A stretch of 64,000 nt of DNA. Origin: Nostoc sp. JL33 (GTDB taxonomy: Bacteria > Cyanobacteriota > Cyanobacteriia > Cyanobacteriales > Nostocaceae). The notes beneath the pieces are model-generated. The model made no database searches. It was not told where the DNA came from and was given only the letters and a program-made list of their open reading frames with translations. A program made the position numbers and the translations under genes. The stretch is from contig NZ_JABXKP010000106.1 of assembly GCF_017114985.1 (NCBI RefSeq), positions 1-64,000 on the forward strand, written 5' to 3'. This document shows positions 22,551 through 28,219 of the stretch, one piece after another; the first letter of the stretch is position 1; every line of letters starts with the position of its first letter.

Positions 22551-22576
22551 ATATTAAAATAATTCGTAATTCGTAA

Positions 22577-22690
22577 TGACGCTCTCTACGAACGCGAATA
22601 GCGTGTCGCAGACAGACGCTAAAAGCGTAGCTTGTCCTCCGCAGGAGTACGCGGACTCGCTAACGCTGCGCTAACGTAATTCGTAATTAA
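22577..22690. repeat. Composite repeat rich in GCGTAGC / GCTAACG modules
   Basis: Flanked by AATTCGTAATTCGTAAT on both sides (about 22563-22578 and 22674-22688), with an interior built from GACGCTAAAAGCGTAGC and CTCCGCAGGAG-type hairpins. It looks like modules inserted into a heptamer (AATTCGT) tract. Confidence 0.65.
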
Positions 22691-22763
22691 GTTTTTTAAG
22701 AGCGATTTAGCGCAAAATCGGATCAAACTAGCTCGTGGTCTTTTGTTGTCAAGATTCAACTCT

Positions 22764-23222
22764 ATGGACAAACTTTTTTTGTATGACCAAGACTTCTATG
22801 GCTGGACACAGCAGCAGGCTAAAGCGTTAGAGCAGAGGCTAGTTATGGAACTAGATTGGCAACACCTGCAAGAGGAAATTCAAGCTTTGGGCAGACAGGA
22901 GTATCGAGAACTCGTAAGTCATTTGAGTTTATTACTCGGCTATCTCTTGAAGTGGGAGTATCAACCCGAACAACGCGATCGCAGTTGGTTTTTAACAATT
23001 CGAGAACAGCGTCGCGCCATCCACAGACATCTGCGACAGAACCCCAGCTTAAAGTCTCGAATAGAAGAAGCCTTGTTAGATGGCTTTGAAGCGGGAGTGG
23101 ATTTGGCGCTACGAGAAACTAACTTACCATTACGAGCTTTTCCAGAGCATTGCCCCTATTTATTTGATGATGCGATCGCAGACAATTTTCTGTGCGATAC
23201 TCGTCAAGACTGGGAAGGATAA
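22764..23222 (+). CDS. DUF29 domain protein
   Basis: A 152-residue protein of the cyanobacteria-enriched DUF29 family: LYDQDFYGWTQQQAKALEQRL, then ELDWQHLQEEIQALGRQEYRELVSHLSLLLGYLLKWEYQPE and the C-terminal LPLRAFPEHCPYLFDDAI. The family is all-helical, usually present in many copies per genome, and its function is unknown. ATG 22764 is used because a DUF29 N-terminus starts there; the upstream TTG 22743 has nothing to favour it. A second, divergent copy is at 33485-33928. Confidence 0.85.
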   Translation: MDKLFLYDQDFYGWTQQQAKALEQRLVMELDWQHLQEEIQALGRQEYRELVSHLSLLLGYLLKWEYQPEQRDRSWFLTIREQRRAIHRHLRQNPSLKSRIEEALLDGFEAGVDLALRETNLPLRAFPEHCPYLFDDAIADNFLCDTRQDWEG

Positions 23223-23274
23223 TTCCTGCCATTTTTTTGACGCTCATTTTTTATATGGATACACGTTATATTTG

Positions 23275-24012
23275 TTAATAAATAATAGAAACTAGTTTTT
23301 CAAAATCTTGTAAATCACAGCTTTGCTGTTTTTGAACATCTTGAACATATATATTGTAGTACAGCTTATTTTCTTGAAATTTGAAGAAAGAGCCTACTAT
23401 GGGTAACTGCTCACCTTTAAGTCTGAAAACTATTCTGTTAAGTTTATATTTTCCGTATTTATTAACAAGATAAACAAAGCTATCAAAACTTCCATTTACA
23501 GCTTTTTCAAATTCGAGTATATTTTTATCTAATTTATTAGAACTTTGCAAGATTAAAGCTGGTATATCTTCAAGATTATTGAGAGTATTACTCATAAATA
23601 CTCCATCTTTTTTTATATAAGCAATAATTTGGTGATAATTGTATAAAATACCAATTTCTGAACAAGATTGTTTTAGGTATCTTTCAATCTGCTTCTCATG
23701 ATTCCGTAAGTTTTCTTCTTCTCGCTTGACTTCCACAATCATTAGAGGAGGTAAATATGGTTTAAAATATTCATTTTCCGCAGTTTTATATAATTCTATA
23801 TCATGATTATCAGATTCCACCCTTATATCAATTTTATTTGGGAATAGTCCACTTTGATTTACTAAAAAGTAGAGAAACAATTGCCTAATTTTTTCTTCTG
23901 GTCGTCCATCAAGAACAATTTCCCTCCTTCTAATCAAACACTTTGTATATTCTGCATAGTCTATCTTATATATATTTAGTTTTCTGGATATTTCTTCACT
24001 TAAGCTAGTCAT
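23275..24012 (-). CDS. HsdR-N-like PD-(D/E)XK nuclease domain protein
   Basis: A 245-residue protein whose N-terminal half follows the type I restriction HsdR N-terminal domain: GRPEEKIRQLFLYFLVNQSGLFPNKIDIRVE (residues 36-66), Asp71 in HDIELY, and the catalytic-type LPPLMIVEVKRE with Glu94 and Lys96. A helix QIERYLKQSCSEIGILYNYHQIIAYIKKDG follows, as in such domains. No helicase, methyltransferase or specificity gene is present, so it is not part of a type I system. It lies 91 nt downstream of the P-loop NTPase gene on the same strand and is AT-rich like it; the two are likely co-transcribed. The C-terminal 110 residues match nothing that I know. Confidence 0.65.
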   Translation of the reverse strand: MTSLSEEISRKLNIYKIDYAEYTKCLIRRREIVLDGRPEEKIRQLFLYFLVNQSGLFPNKIDIRVESDNHDIELYKTAENEYFKPYLPPLMIVEVKREEENLRNHEKQIERYLKQSCSEIGILYNYHQIIAYIKKDGVFMSNTLNNLEDIPALILQSSNKLDKNILEFEKAVNGSFDSFVYLVNKYGKYKLNRIVFRLKGEQLPIVGSFFKFQENKLYYNIYVQDVQKQQSCDLQDFEKLVSIIY

Positions 24013-24103
24013 AGATAGTCAGGTTGGTTTATAAACTGGTTATAGGGATGCAATAATATTGCATCTCTTAGTATTTACCATGCGATTTTAAATTGCTATC
24101 TGT

Positions 24104-26134
24104 CTATTTTTCTCCGAAAAAGCTTAATATTTTAGTAACTAATTCTGCCCAATACTCACCTGCTTTAATCTCTAAAAATGTATTGAGGCTTTGCTCACTT
24201 TCAAGTTCGTTCTTCAATGTCCTACATACATTCTTTGTATAGTTCTCACCTGGAAGCTGTACCTTGCCTTTCTCTTTAATTAAAGCCGTCCAGAATTCAG
24301 AATCTGCGCTTTGAGGTGATAATTTTCTTCTAGCTTCATATTGAACTTTGACACCTACTTCACTTATAAAATTGTCATAAAATGAGTTAAGTTGTATGAC
24401 TAATTCAGGAATAAATGTTTTTAAAGATTCATTCGCAGATGTAAGCTCATTAAGGATATTTTCTAATTCCTGTTTTGGTTGTTTGGTAAACTTCTTCAGC
24501 ATTTCATCTTCATTTCTTCCCTCAGCAAAAACCCTCATATCGTAATATATGTCTATATTTCTTGGCTCATAGTAACCGAAGTTTCTATGGATAGCATGTT
24601 TAGTGTTCCATGCCTTAGGATTGGTACGATAATGTTCAACATACTTAGTAACAAAACCTTTATCTGTACCTTGGTCTTTATAATTAAAACTTTGTACTCT
24701 TTTACTTAAATCCCGTAAATCCTTTATCTTCTGAATGGCATTTTCAATTGCCTTGATTTCTGCTTCGGTCAAAGCATCACCATTTTTTATTCTCGTAAAG
24801 TTTTCTTGGATATTCTTTATTTCACCCAATAAAATATTTCGTCTACGTTCTACTACACCGGCTATGGCTTCAATGAATTCATTTTTATCTGCCTGTACAT
24901 TTTCATCACTGTAAATATCAGTATTTAGCTTGACTATATCATCACGGTAGTACCTAAAAGCATCATAGAACAAAATGTTTTCCAGGAAAAAATCTAGGTT
25001 TAAATTCCTAAATGTAGCTTGAACTTCTTCTTTTCTGATTTGAATTCCTGTATCCCAATCTCCATCACATCCATTCACTTTTTCAGGTTGATTTTTGTGA
25101 GGCAATACCAAAGTTATAAATCTATGATGAAAATCTTTGGATTTAGATGTAAGATGATAACCTATTAAATCCCTAATATTAGTTTCAGGAGCATCATTAA
25201 AGGGAGTGACAAAGAGACAGATAGTATCCTGATTTTCAATATATTTCTGCAAGTCTTTACGAATTGGATTTTCATCAAGTCCTTTAGTATCTACAACTGA
25301 ATCGAACTGAGACAAGTTTGATCCAGATAAAACATCATAGCTCACATAAAGATATATTTTTCTCGGAATAGCAAATTCCTCAAGCTCAACATTATTGATG
25401 GCAGCAAAGGTATTTTTTATCCATTCTTGCTCATTTTTTTGATTATTAAATTCAATCTTATTCGTAGTTCTAGATTCAAGCTTTGCATTATTCAAAGCAA
25501 GTTTTTTTAATTCATCTAATCCTAGCTTATCAAATTCTTCCTTAGCTATATCTATTTCAATTTTCTTTTTTTCTCCATCATTAATTGTTTTATAGTGTAA
25601 CTTCATTTTTGTAACATTCCTAATAGCCCTTTCAATTTCTTTAGAAATAATTATCTTCTGATCTGCTTGAGGATTGTCTTTATTTGCAATATGTTCGCAA
25701 AACTCAAAAATAAGATTTTCCATTTCGTCAACTGCATAAGGCTCTATCTCTATGTAAGTTTTTTCCGCAGCTTTGATAATTACTTCACATATAGTAGTTT
25801 TACCTCCTCCCGTTGATAGTAATTCTTTAGTTTCGGTTATATTCCGAGGTTTACCAGCAATAGTTTTGGAAACATTGAAGTCGCTTATTAAGTTAAAAAT
25901 ATGGCAAATAGCTGTGGTCTTTCCTTGACCAATAGTACCTATAAAAGCAATTTTATATTTTTCTATACTAAGAATTTTATCTATTTCATCTAATCGCTCT
26001 AACTTGGATTTCAGGTTATTGATGCAAATATGATTAGATATATTAATTTCCGAATGACCTGATATTTTTTTAATTTCTTTCCTCAAATTTTGTTTCAAGG
26101 ATGCAATTTCTTCTTGCCACGTTATCGTCAACAT
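24104..26134 (-). CDS. Dynamin-like P-loop NTPase of unknown function
   Basis: A 676-residue protein. Residues 66-74 (GTIGQGKTT) are a Walker A/G1 loop; 281-285 (VDTKG) is the DxxG element of GTPases; 107-114 (STGGGKTT) is a second glycine-rich loop at the place of switch I, where a Thr could coordinate magnesium. No clear NKxD is seen. Between 120 and 250 and again after 420 the chain is charged and helical, with coiled-coil character, as in large dynamin-like proteins. There is no transmembrane segment; the end (YWAELVTKILSFFGEK) is amphipathic. It is strongly AT-rich with no HIP1 site over 2 kb, unlike its neighbours, which suggests horizontal transfer. With the nuclease-like gene downstream it makes a plausible two-gene defence unit; this role is inferred. 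Confidence 0.6.
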   Translation of the reverse strand: MLTITWQEEIASLKQNLRKEIKKISGHSEINISNHICINNLKSKLERLDEIDKILSIEKYKIAFIGTIGQGKTTAICHIFNLISDFNVSKTIAGKPRNITETKELLSTGGGKTTICEVIIKAAEKTYIEIEPYAVDEMENLIFEFCEHIANKDNPQADQKIIISKEIERAIRNVTKMKLHYKTINDGEKKKIEIDIAKEEFDKLGLDELKKLALNNAKLESRTTNKIEFNNQKNEQEWIKNTFAAINNVELEEFAIPRKIYLYVSYDVLSGSNLSQFDSVVDTKGLDENPIRKDLQKYIENQDTICLFVTPFNDAPETNIRDLIGYHLTSKSKDFHHRFITLVLPHKNQPEKVNGCDGDWDTGIQIRKEEVQATFRNLNLDFFLENILFYDAFRYYRDDIVKLNTDIYSDENVQADKNEFIEAIAGVVERRRNILLGEIKNIQENFTRIKNGDALTEAEIKAIENAIQKIKDLRDLSKRVQSFNYKDQGTDKGFVTKYVEHYRTNPKAWNTKHAIHRNFGYYEPRNIDIYYDMRVFAEGRNEDEMLKKFTKQPKQELENILNELTSANESLKTFIPELVIQLNSFYDNFISEVGVKVQYEARRKLSPQSADSEFWTALIKEKGKVQLPGENYTKNVCRTLKNELESEQSLNTFLEIKAGEYWAELVTKILSFFGEK

Positions 26135-26307
26135 ACTGTTTACCCTTTTTCGATGCTTACTTACTTGATATTTACAGTATGCCCATTATGGTTGAATATC
26201 TAACAAAAGCCTCATAAAACCACCAAACGCGCCTATGGCAAGCCTTTAGTCACTTGGATATGAGCAGAGCGATCGCTAATTTTGGCTGAGTTAGAGGTTC
26301 TGGTAGA

Positions 26308-26413
26308 AATACATAACGGCTGCACAAACTAAGTCCGCCTGCATGGACTCCAGCAAGTTGAAACCCACGGAGGTGGGTTTTGTCTGTATAGCTGCGATTT
26401 CTAATCGCCAGGG
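26308..26413. repeat. Three-hairpin interspersed repeat (MITE-like)
   Basis: Consecutive hairpins AGTCCGCCTGCATGGACT, AACCCACGGAGGTGGGTT and CTGCGATTTCTAATCGCCAG. This order is a pattern common in Nostoc-type genomes. It lies between the AT-rich unit and the next plus-strand gene, so may mark an insertion edge. Confidence 0.8.
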
Positions 26414-26490
26414 CTAGGATATTTTTACTGGCAGTTAAGGAATAAATGGTTTTAAAATGGTGCAATCTTAAATGATTTATGGGTGCAGCT

Positions 26491-26988
26491 ATGTCGCTAC
26501 GCAATGAGCCTTTAGATTGGCAAGTTGAATCAAATGATCCTTATATACCAGTTTATCATCAAGGTGATTTGGTGGGATTTTTTAAACCAGATTATGCCAG
26601 TGAAGTTATTAAGTTTTTAAATGAGCAAGTAGTTTTAAAGAAAGCCTTAAAAATGGCTTGTACTGATTTAATTAAAAAAATGGGCGGCGATCCGAATAAA
26701 GTCAATTATTTAATGGGTAAATATATAATAACTAGTGAGCGTCCCAAGCATGGAACTAGAGCGATCGCTATTCTACTTACTGATCGACAAAAAGAACTTG
26801 ACTTGAGTAACCAGGAGTTTACTAAATTCTGCGATAGCTTTAAATTATCCCCCGATGAACTGAATAATATTTATGCTGGAGAAGCATTTGATGATAGTTT
26901 GTTAGCGCCCATATCACGTATATTAGGGATTGCAAAAGAGCGGTTGCTGGAAGTGCGGGATGGTTCTGAAGAACAAAGTAACATATAA
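26491..26988 (+). CDS. Hypothetical protein, possible regulator
   Basis: A soluble protein of about 165 residues. The N-terminal part reads SLRNEPLDWQVESNDPYIPVYHQGDLVGFFKPDYASEVIKFLNEQ, a segment typical of small cyanobacterial unknowns; the C-terminal part (TDRQKELDLSNQEFTKFCDSFKLSPDELNNIYAGEAFDDSLLAPISRILGIAKERLLEVRDG) has the helical spacing of an HTH domain without a firm match. ATG 26491 is chosen; an ATG at 26479 is also possible. It may regulate the adjacent accessory genes, but nothing shows this directly. Confidence 0.55.
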   Translation: MSLRNEPLDWQVESNDPYIPVYHQGDLVGFFKPDYASEVIKFLNEQVVLKKALKMACTDLIKKMGGDPNKVNYLMGKYIITSERPKHGTRAIAILLTDRQKELDLSNQEFTKFCDSFKLSPDELNNIYAGEAFDDSLLAPISRILGIAKERLLEVRDGSEEQSNI

Positions 26989-27022: not shown

Positions 27023-27856
27023 GTGAAAACAGACATCATCTTTTATCGGCTGTTTTAAGAATTCCCTGATATCTTTTTTGAACTTATTGGTAATCCTCCA
27101 GAATCAGCTAGCCTCTATCAATTTTCATCAGTTGAAATCAAACAAACAGGCTTCAGAATCGATGGTGTATTTCTGCCTACACAAGGAAGCGAGAACCAGA
27201 TTTACTTTGTGGAAGTGCAATTTCAAGCTGATGGGGAAATTTATTCACGGCTAATTGCAGAAATATGTTTATACCTCCGTCAGAATCAACCATTAAATGA
27301 CTGGGGTGCTGTGGTTTTATACCCAAACAGGAATATAGATACAGGCGATATCAAACATTACCGTGAGTTTTTCACAAGTGGGCGCGTCAGGCGCATTTAT
27401 TTGGATGAATTAGGTGAGGCTGCATCGCTTCCAATTGGCATTGCAACTGCTAAATTAGTAATTGCAACCGATGATATAGCGATCGCACAAGCAAGAGAGT
27501 TAATAGACAGAACCAAGTCAGAGATAAGCTCACCACCAAAACAGCAGCAATTATTACAATTTATAGAGACTATTTTGGCTTACAAATTTCCCACAATAAC
27601 TAGGGAGGAGATGGAGCAAATGTTTGGATTAAGCGAGTTAAAGCAAACCAGATTTTATCAGGAAGCTTTTCAGGAAGGTCTTGAACAAGGCATTGAACGA
27701 GGCATTAAACAAGGCATTGAACAAGGCATTGAACAAGGTGAGCTTAAAGGTAAACTAAAAGCAGTACCAGGAATGTTGGCAGCAGGGTTGACTGTAGAAC
27801 AAGTAGCAGAAGCGTTAGATTTGAGTGTCGAAGAAGTCAGACAAGCCGCGCAGTAG
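27023..27856 (+). pseudogene. Rpn/DUF2887-type PD-(D/E)XK nuclease gene with an internal stop
   Basis: From GTG 27023 the frame reads MKTDIIFYRLF, then TAA at 27056-27058 (codon 12), then EFPDIFFELIGNPPESASLYQFSSVEIKQTGFRIDGVFLP...IYFVEVQFQADGEIYSRLIAEICLYLR, the standard start of this family of recombination-promoting nuclease/transposase-like proteins. One C-to-T change (CAA to TAA) accounts for the stop. The nuclease residues Asp (FRIDGV) and E-x-Q (VEVQ) lie after it. A GTG at 27209 could restart translation, but would lose the Asp. The C-terminus has the usual EQGIERGIKQGIEQG repeats and a terminal TVEQVAEALDLSVEEV module. Probably a recent pseudogene. Confidence 0.75.
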
Positions 27857-27907
27857 GATTCTTCTGATCAAGGAGTAGAGGAATTGGTGGACTACAACAT
27901 AGGAACT

Positions 27908-28219
27908 ATGAGTTTCAAAGATACAAAAGTTTATCAAGAAGCATTTGAAGAAGGGCGTTTGGAAGGTTTAATGCAATCAGTACCTCGTCTATTAGATTTA
28001 GTTTTAACTATTGAGCAAGTTGCGGAGGGATTAGGTTTAACCATAAACCAAGTTCAAAACGCAAAAGCTTATCATGATGCCATGCAAGAAGGAGAGCGTA
28101 GAGCCAAATTAAAATTAATACCCACCTTATTAAAATTGGGGGTGACTGTGGAACAAGTGGCAGAGGCATTTAGTTTCAGTGTCGAAGAAGTCAAACAAGT
28201 AGCACAAACTCAGCCTTGA
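27908..28219 (+). CDS. Small protein with two copies of the Rpn C-terminal module
   Basis: About 103 residues. It consists of two repeats, KVYQEAFEEGRLEGLMQSVPRLLDLVLTIEQVAEGLGLTINQV and KAYHDAMQEGERRAKLKLIPTLLKLGVTVEQVAEAFSFSVEEV, each like the last 45 residues of the broken nuclease gene upstream (FYQEAFQEG...TVEQVAEALDLSVEEV). It carries no nuclease core. It is either a free-standing relic left by duplication or a small protein that pairs with Rpn-type proteins. A TTG start at 27884 would add eight residues. Confidence 0.55.
   Translation: MSFKDTKVYQEAFEEGRLEGLMQSVPRLLDLVLTIEQVAEGLGLTINQVQNAKAYHDAMQEGERRAKLKLIPTLLKLGVTVEQVAEAFSFSVEEVKQVAQTQP

Follow-up and report, generated by a model that had tools for sequence, protein, structure and literature searches.

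A dynamin-like NTPase and an HsdR-type nuclease form an apparently undescribed, possibly antiviral gene pair in Nostoc

Animals possess antiviral dynamins, the Mx proteins. In bacteria, DynA of Bacillus subtilis is described as a dynamin-superfamily protein that protects against phage, delays lysis and clusters on the membrane (PMC8844932). The NTPase reported here belongs to the same superfamily, but the abstract of the DynA study names no nuclease partner (PMC8844932), whereas our NTPase has one and is without a marked hydrophobic stretch. "Dynamins", LeoABC and Eleos are entries in defense catalogues, where dynamin-like proteins are counted as a defense system; our NTPase, in contrast, drew no match at E-values up to 1 from the PADLOC models, a library that may lack LeoABC and Eleos. 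To our knowledge, the partners in LeoABC and Eleos are not nucleases. The second protein shares its fold and catalytic residues with the N-terminal nuclease of type I restriction HsdR (3h1t, EcoR124I), but it has a tail of its own and a dynamin partner, and no helicase, HsdM or HsdS was recognized with it. Conflict systems built on DO-GTPases and GAP1 also join a P-loop switch protein to a downstream partner and effectors, but their description as TRAFAC double GTPases with GAP1 sets them apart from our pair (PMC7159879). HEC-01 and AriA, AAA_21 ATPase systems in PADLOC, are linked to the pair through NTPase relatives that are fused to such an ATPase, but the pair itself gave no AAA_21 match in Pfam. 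SNIPE, finally, is presented in its abstract, from which dynamin is absent, as a single membrane-bound nuclease; it would resemble our pair, if the spatial reading considered below were true, in having a nuclease positioned to cut incoming phage DNA (PMC13190303). No account matching the pair was found in open-access full text, and the words "dynamin", "GTPase" and "HsdR" do not occur in the main text of PMC12839542 or PMC13092281. As the original prediction had supposed, the pair looks undescribed, and it may be one that fights viruses.

The window, by which we mean the whole 64,000-nt stretch of DNA analyzed, carries the two predicted minus-strand genes 91 nt apart. The features of the locus are as follows.

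23269..26268, no strand: exchangeable segment, judged from the closest unoccupied sites
23275..24012, minus strand: nuclease (245 aa) with an HsdR-type PD-(D/E)XK domain and a C-terminal tail, possibly Sm/Hfq-like (Pfam, AlphaFold2, structural matches)
23278..23487, minus strand: nuclease tail, residues 176-245, helix and five strands, possibly Sm/Hfq-like
23527..23913, minus strand: nuclease domain, residues 34-162
23725..23733, minus strand: predicted catalytic E94-V-K96; E94 and K96 invariant in a 38-row alignment and in all 21 full-length copies from the genus
23800..23802, minus strand: predicted catalytic D71, invariant in the 38-row alignment and the genus copies
24013..24103, no strand: intergenic gap of 91 nt
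24104..26134, minus strand: dynamin-like NTPase (676 aa; AlphaFold2 pLDDT 79.7; structural matches; Foldseek)
25088..25099, minus strand: G4 place, HKNQ instead of N/TKxD, residues 346-349, after model strand 339-344
25280..25291, minus strand: G3 motif DTKG, residues 282-285; D282, T283 and G285 invariant in a 22-row divergent alignment
25781..25819, minus strand: switch-like LSTGGGKTTICEV, residues 106-118, possible G2; G111 and T114 invariant in the 22-row alignment
25913..25939, minus strand: P-loop (G1) GTIGQGKTT, residues 66-74; G66, G69, G71, K72 and T74 invariant in the 22-row alignment

The block is AT-rich, as had been claimed, with a GC content of 30.5% against 42.6% for the window, and the GC minimum among 2,860-nt segments taken in 100-nt steps starts at about 23200. 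The window contains 53 copies of HIP1 (GCGATCGC), which is missing, again as claimed, over about 3 kb (23172 to 26269, 3,097 nt); this absence alone is weak evidence, because about 5% of 2,860-nt segments contain no HIP1. The claimed lack of a helicase, methyltransferase or specificity subunit held among the ORFs of at least 80 aa read by eye between 18 and 32 kb and in Pfam searches of six proteins, and the combination of HsdM, HsdS and an HsdR helicase that marks a type I restriction-modification locus was not found in the ORFs of that interval. To the left of the pair lie a DUF29 gene (22743-23222; Pfam) and genes that we take, by eye, to be ribosomal-protein and prfA genes; to the right is a 169-aa gene (26479-26988) without a Pfam match. 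The nearest homologues carry the label Nostoc. Also seen by eye were a stretch rich in repeats at 22560-22690, to the left of the pair and flanked by two small genes, and, at 27209-28219, two adjacent ORFs with "EGIEQG"-type repeats that are presumably Rpn/DUF2887-type remnants.

Both NTPase motifs named at the outset, GTIGQGKTT with Lys72 and VDTKG, are present, and the dynamin-like assignment was borne out at the level of the fold. All 50 of the 50 structural matches listed are dynamins, Foldseek agrees, and the model has a dynamin GTPase domain with a helical bundle or stalk. The patterns GxxGxGKxT and DTxG are invariant, as are K72 and D282-T283-K284-G285 in a 37-row alignment that includes the window protein; residues 109-114 are modeled with a pLDDT below 50. 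The canonical guanine motif at G4 of dynamins is N/TKxD; in the pair family this place is degenerate, mostly [HR]Kx[EQ] with exceptions, and the motif leaves the choice of nucleotide undecided. Pfam Dynamin_N matched four of 22 divergent members at E-values up to 0.1 (best 1.1e-4), and Pfam found neither Dynamin_N nor an HTH domain in the window NTPase. Two other identities were rejected: the AAA_22 and AAA matches are weak and under the cut-off while the model is that of a dynamin, and the match to the SRP receptor FtsY (E 0.003) is confined to the P-loop stretch. Action at a membrane is unsupported, because the NTPase is without a strong hydrophobic stretch (hydropathy maximum 1.07, 19-residue Kyte-Doolittle).

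The assignment of the partner as an HsdR-type nuclease fared equally well. PEE (38-40), Asp71 and VEVK (93-96) are where they had been placed; in the 38-row alignment, window protein included, E39, E40, D71, E94 and K96 are invariant, P38 is nearly so and V93 is variable. Pfam HSDR_N_2 matches with a score better than its curated cut-off (E 7.9e-8), and the fold is supported by an AlphaFold2 model (pLDDT 91.7) and by structural matches taken from the VIA-align list, HsdR among them, so that both the fold and the D...ExK residues of HsdR_N/PD-(D/E)XK nucleases are present. A sequence search of the PDB gave no match, and the one PADLOC model matched by the nuclease is that of a type I methyltransferase.

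The tail, a helix and five strands in its model, is possibly Sm/Hfq-like; the fold is uncertain, and its structural match ties with unrelated chains. Searched as a profile against 166 genomes of the order to which the L033 genome belongs, it gave three strong matches, all adjoining the NTPase (the L033 genome itself, G042, and G1555, whose locus overlaps L019); in 178 genomes of the corresponding class, the strong match was to the L033 genome alone. Both samples are small, and the remaining matches (E 0.002-0.006) were rated as chance. The partner gene of L033 (8498-9304) keeps the tail, while its front part differs, is frame-broken and is possibly another effector domain.

The original prediction turned on how often the two genes are neighbors, and here the result was positive. 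Scanning the genome_contigs collection by pattern gave 43 NTPase loci, and a nuclease match lies directly downstream in 30 of them (partial in L027 and L036), including loci from Contendobacter, a Chitinophagaceae and two planctomycetes. The other 13 are L033, with the tail only, and 12 loci without a nuclease match, among which the end of L025 is close to the contig edge and L044 has an NTPase cut short. A sample of 53 genomes from the genus had any NTPase match in 26, an open full-length NTPase in 14 and a full-length nuclease in 21; all 21 nuclease genes have an NTPase gene no more than about 110 nt away, its frame open in 14 cases and broken in seven. That every one adjoins an NTPase gene led us to reject a decayed type I restriction remnant. 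With longest-frame starts, six of 16 listed loci have the two genes abutting or overlapping (L018, L019, L026, L029, L054 and L154). Distances between NTPases and between nucleases correlate strongly (r 0.95 over 17 pairs, with 0 of 2000 permutations as high), which is expected of co-inheritance and therefore does not prove contact between the proteins. Chance does not account for this arrangement, which is conserved across phyla. The NTPase is nevertheless able to exist without the nuclease, since solo NTPases occur and eight of 13 genomes searched had no nuclease match; the five that did were those with pairs (L024, L029 and L034), L033 with its tail, and L043, with a weak match inside a 1,205-aa frame. 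One pair copy is followed by an N6_N4_Mtase DNA methyltransferase gene (L154 2-526). In Contendobacter (L024 7865-11968), the NTPase frame stays open far upstream into another ORF, which we presume to be RecB-type from its resemblance to that nuclease; this is either a fusion or the mere lack of a stop.

The two genes have been passed on as a pair, by inheritance and by transfer, among widely differing bacteria. An NTPase tree was built from 31 rows (L055, L062 and L169 left out, L034 as its first piece only, HTH rows minus 70 start residues, AAA21-fusion rows cut to 620). A branch with 100/100 support sets its 14 pair-bearing rows, together with L033 and two cyanobacterial solos (L030 and L031), apart from the others, and L024 from Contendobacter clusters with a copy from Phormidium and one from a Pseudanabaena plasmid, also at 100/100. 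Both planctomycete loci have a broken NTPase frame. The gene is rare: any match, fragments included, was found in eight of 386 sampled cyanobacteria, all of one family, and long matches in 3/395, 1/294 and 4/398 genomes of the L033, L034 and L024 phyla, counts that each include the chosen center genome.

Closer to home, the site is polymorphic. We read 30 loci, the window's own included, of the 42 genomes with the 169-aa gene: eight have the NTPase start (in one, G400, it is broken further on), two have remnants, 13 have a whole or partial DUF29 gene nearby and no trace of the pair, and seven are not judgeable. Compared with the closest unoccupied sites, homology stops at 23268 in four and is picked up again at 26269-26270 in six; at other unoccupied sites the edges fall at 23237-23294 and 26352-26442, tens to about 170 nt off. 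Six unoccupied sites align well with one another, and one of these, L069, has a 154-aa ORF (791-1255) in place of the pair. G425 lacks the pair at the site and has it elsewhere in the same genome. A 490-aa transposase-like ORF (L188 259-1731) splits the NTPase of G400 just after DTKGLDENP; by its look we take it to be an IS66-type transposase. The pair has been repeatedly lost and replaced. Thirteen loci, the window's included, are linked to one another by sharing at least three flanking genes, and the pair is therefore mobile yet an established resident in this lineage. The transfer proposed from base composition thus stands as gain or exchange, which the site polymorphism and the cross-phylum tree support, but not as a very recent arrival, which we rejected because relatives share the site.

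Relatives of the NTPase extend well beyond the pair. Plasmid records yielded 19 NTPase matches, 13 of them annotated HTH or XRE and largely from Rhizobium and sphingomonads; HTH_31 matches eight of 22 aligned members, and a DUF262 protein is the next gene in two sphingomonad plasmids. Fusions to an AAA_21 ATPase were found in three of 398 genomes of the Contendobacter genome's phylum.

L168 145-3156: NTPase-AAA_21 fusion, then a small ORF
L169 310-3246: NTPase-AAA_21 fusion, then a small ORF
L170 1393-4416: NTPase-AAA_21 fusion, then a small ORF

The small ORF begins alike in all three genomes; that of L168 has a weak HEC-01B match (E 2e-4), and the ATPase part of the locus matches HEC-01A and AriA. 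Solo NTPases were found in Shewanella, Alishewanella, Nitrincola and Marinobacterium. Three of the solo proteins (L037, L038 and L040), from three gammaproteobacterial genera, are near-identical amid differing neighbors, which suggests recent transfer. E. coli genomes searched with one HTH-type relative gave no match, phage records gave no NTPase match at E-values up to 1e-5, and viral contigs contained one solo-type relative. A third protein search, with the divergent alignment, returned mostly Nostoc-type members again.

The expectation that the pair would fall in defense islands was mostly disappointed for its chromosomal loci. PADLOC models matched two of the 20 nearest neighbors at E-values up to 1e-10 (ORFs of at least 100 aa on either side of ten loci, which are not all independent and were scored without a control set), namely ankyrin repeats next to L016 and a C5 DNA methyltransferase next to L018. 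Of ten neighbors searched with Pfam, the one at L008 is a Uma2 "putative restriction endonuclease" and the others are mostly ordinary genes. By annotation, restriction, toxin-antitoxin or similar genes lie near six of nine plasmid loci (L054, L057, L058, L059, L061 and L062), and no restriction or toxin-antitoxin genes lie near L055, L056 and L060; these nine represent the wider NTPase family, the pair being present in L054 alone.

We hold with moderate confidence that the two genes form one mobile conflict module, a dynamin switch with a nuclease, most likely directed against viruses or mobile elements. Its computed basis is the dynamin fold, the HsdR-type fold with conserved catalytic residues, the tight adjacency, the cross-phylum spread and the repeated loss and replacement. 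The dynamin-like NTPase would serve as sensor and switch: upon infection it would bind NTP and assemble, and the assembly would recruit or license the HsdR-type nuclease, probably via the conserved tail, so that DNA would be cut by the licensed enzyme. We infer NTP-driven assembly, a contact through the tail, DNA as the substrate and phages or plasmids as the trigger. By itself the nuclease would plausibly do no harm and would need the NTPase, because it is full length in seven genomes with a broken NTPase. The argument is weak, since gene length alone would put all seven breaks in the NTPase with a probability of about 0.11, and since the genomes are relatives of one another.

A restriction mechanism of type IV character, in which the NTPase would load on DNA and steer the nuclease to DNA that is modified or foreign, without any part for a membrane, appears to be an unlikely account. 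McrBC follows this logic, its NTPase loading on DNA and directing a nuclease, and nuclease domains of the HsdR type usually partner with an NTP-driven DNA motor. The HsdR match of our nuclease fits such a scheme, as do the solo relative L035, which adjoins a full HsdR, the methyltransferase gene after the L154 pair, and the XRE-type HTH domains on NTPase relatives, which could bind DNA; but the fold of the NTPase is that of a dynamin, neither AAA+ nor helicase, and the window protein has no HTH match.

That the genes serve DNA handling or membrane maintenance and are mobile by happenstance strikes us as quite unlikely. The mostly ordinary neighbors tested in cyanobacterial chromosomes are in line with such a role, and the bacterial dynamin DynA has membrane roles, as described in its abstract (PMC8844932), but the patchiness, decay, site polymorphism, cross-phylum spread and plasmid copy better fit a dispensable conflict module. 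Adjacency, a nuclease and mobility would also suit a toxin-antitoxin pair with an NTPase restraining a toxic nuclease, an identity that we rejected as highly improbable: seven of the 21 nuclease genes persist beside a broken NTPase, each with every catalytic residue that was checked. Such tolerance argues against toxin-antitoxin logic and for activation, with less force if upstream breaks act by polar effects.

Our preferred reading of a dynamin switch with a licensed nuclease invites a bolder version, about which we are doubtful: a bacterial dynamin may have been turned from membrane remodeller into nuclease trigger, its assembly upon infection gathering the nuclease through an Sm-like tail, so that the DNase would be gated in space and independent of DNA modification, with the same switch reused for other outputs. 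If this is true, the dynamin switch reused in HTH and AAA_21 ATPase fusions would constitute a new class of immune switch. The conserved pair, with its clear nuclease, offers a directly testable case of how a bacterial dynamin could be coupled to a defined effector, and the wider unnamed NTPase family, whose attached domains vary, could represent a switch that recurs in prokaryotic conflict.
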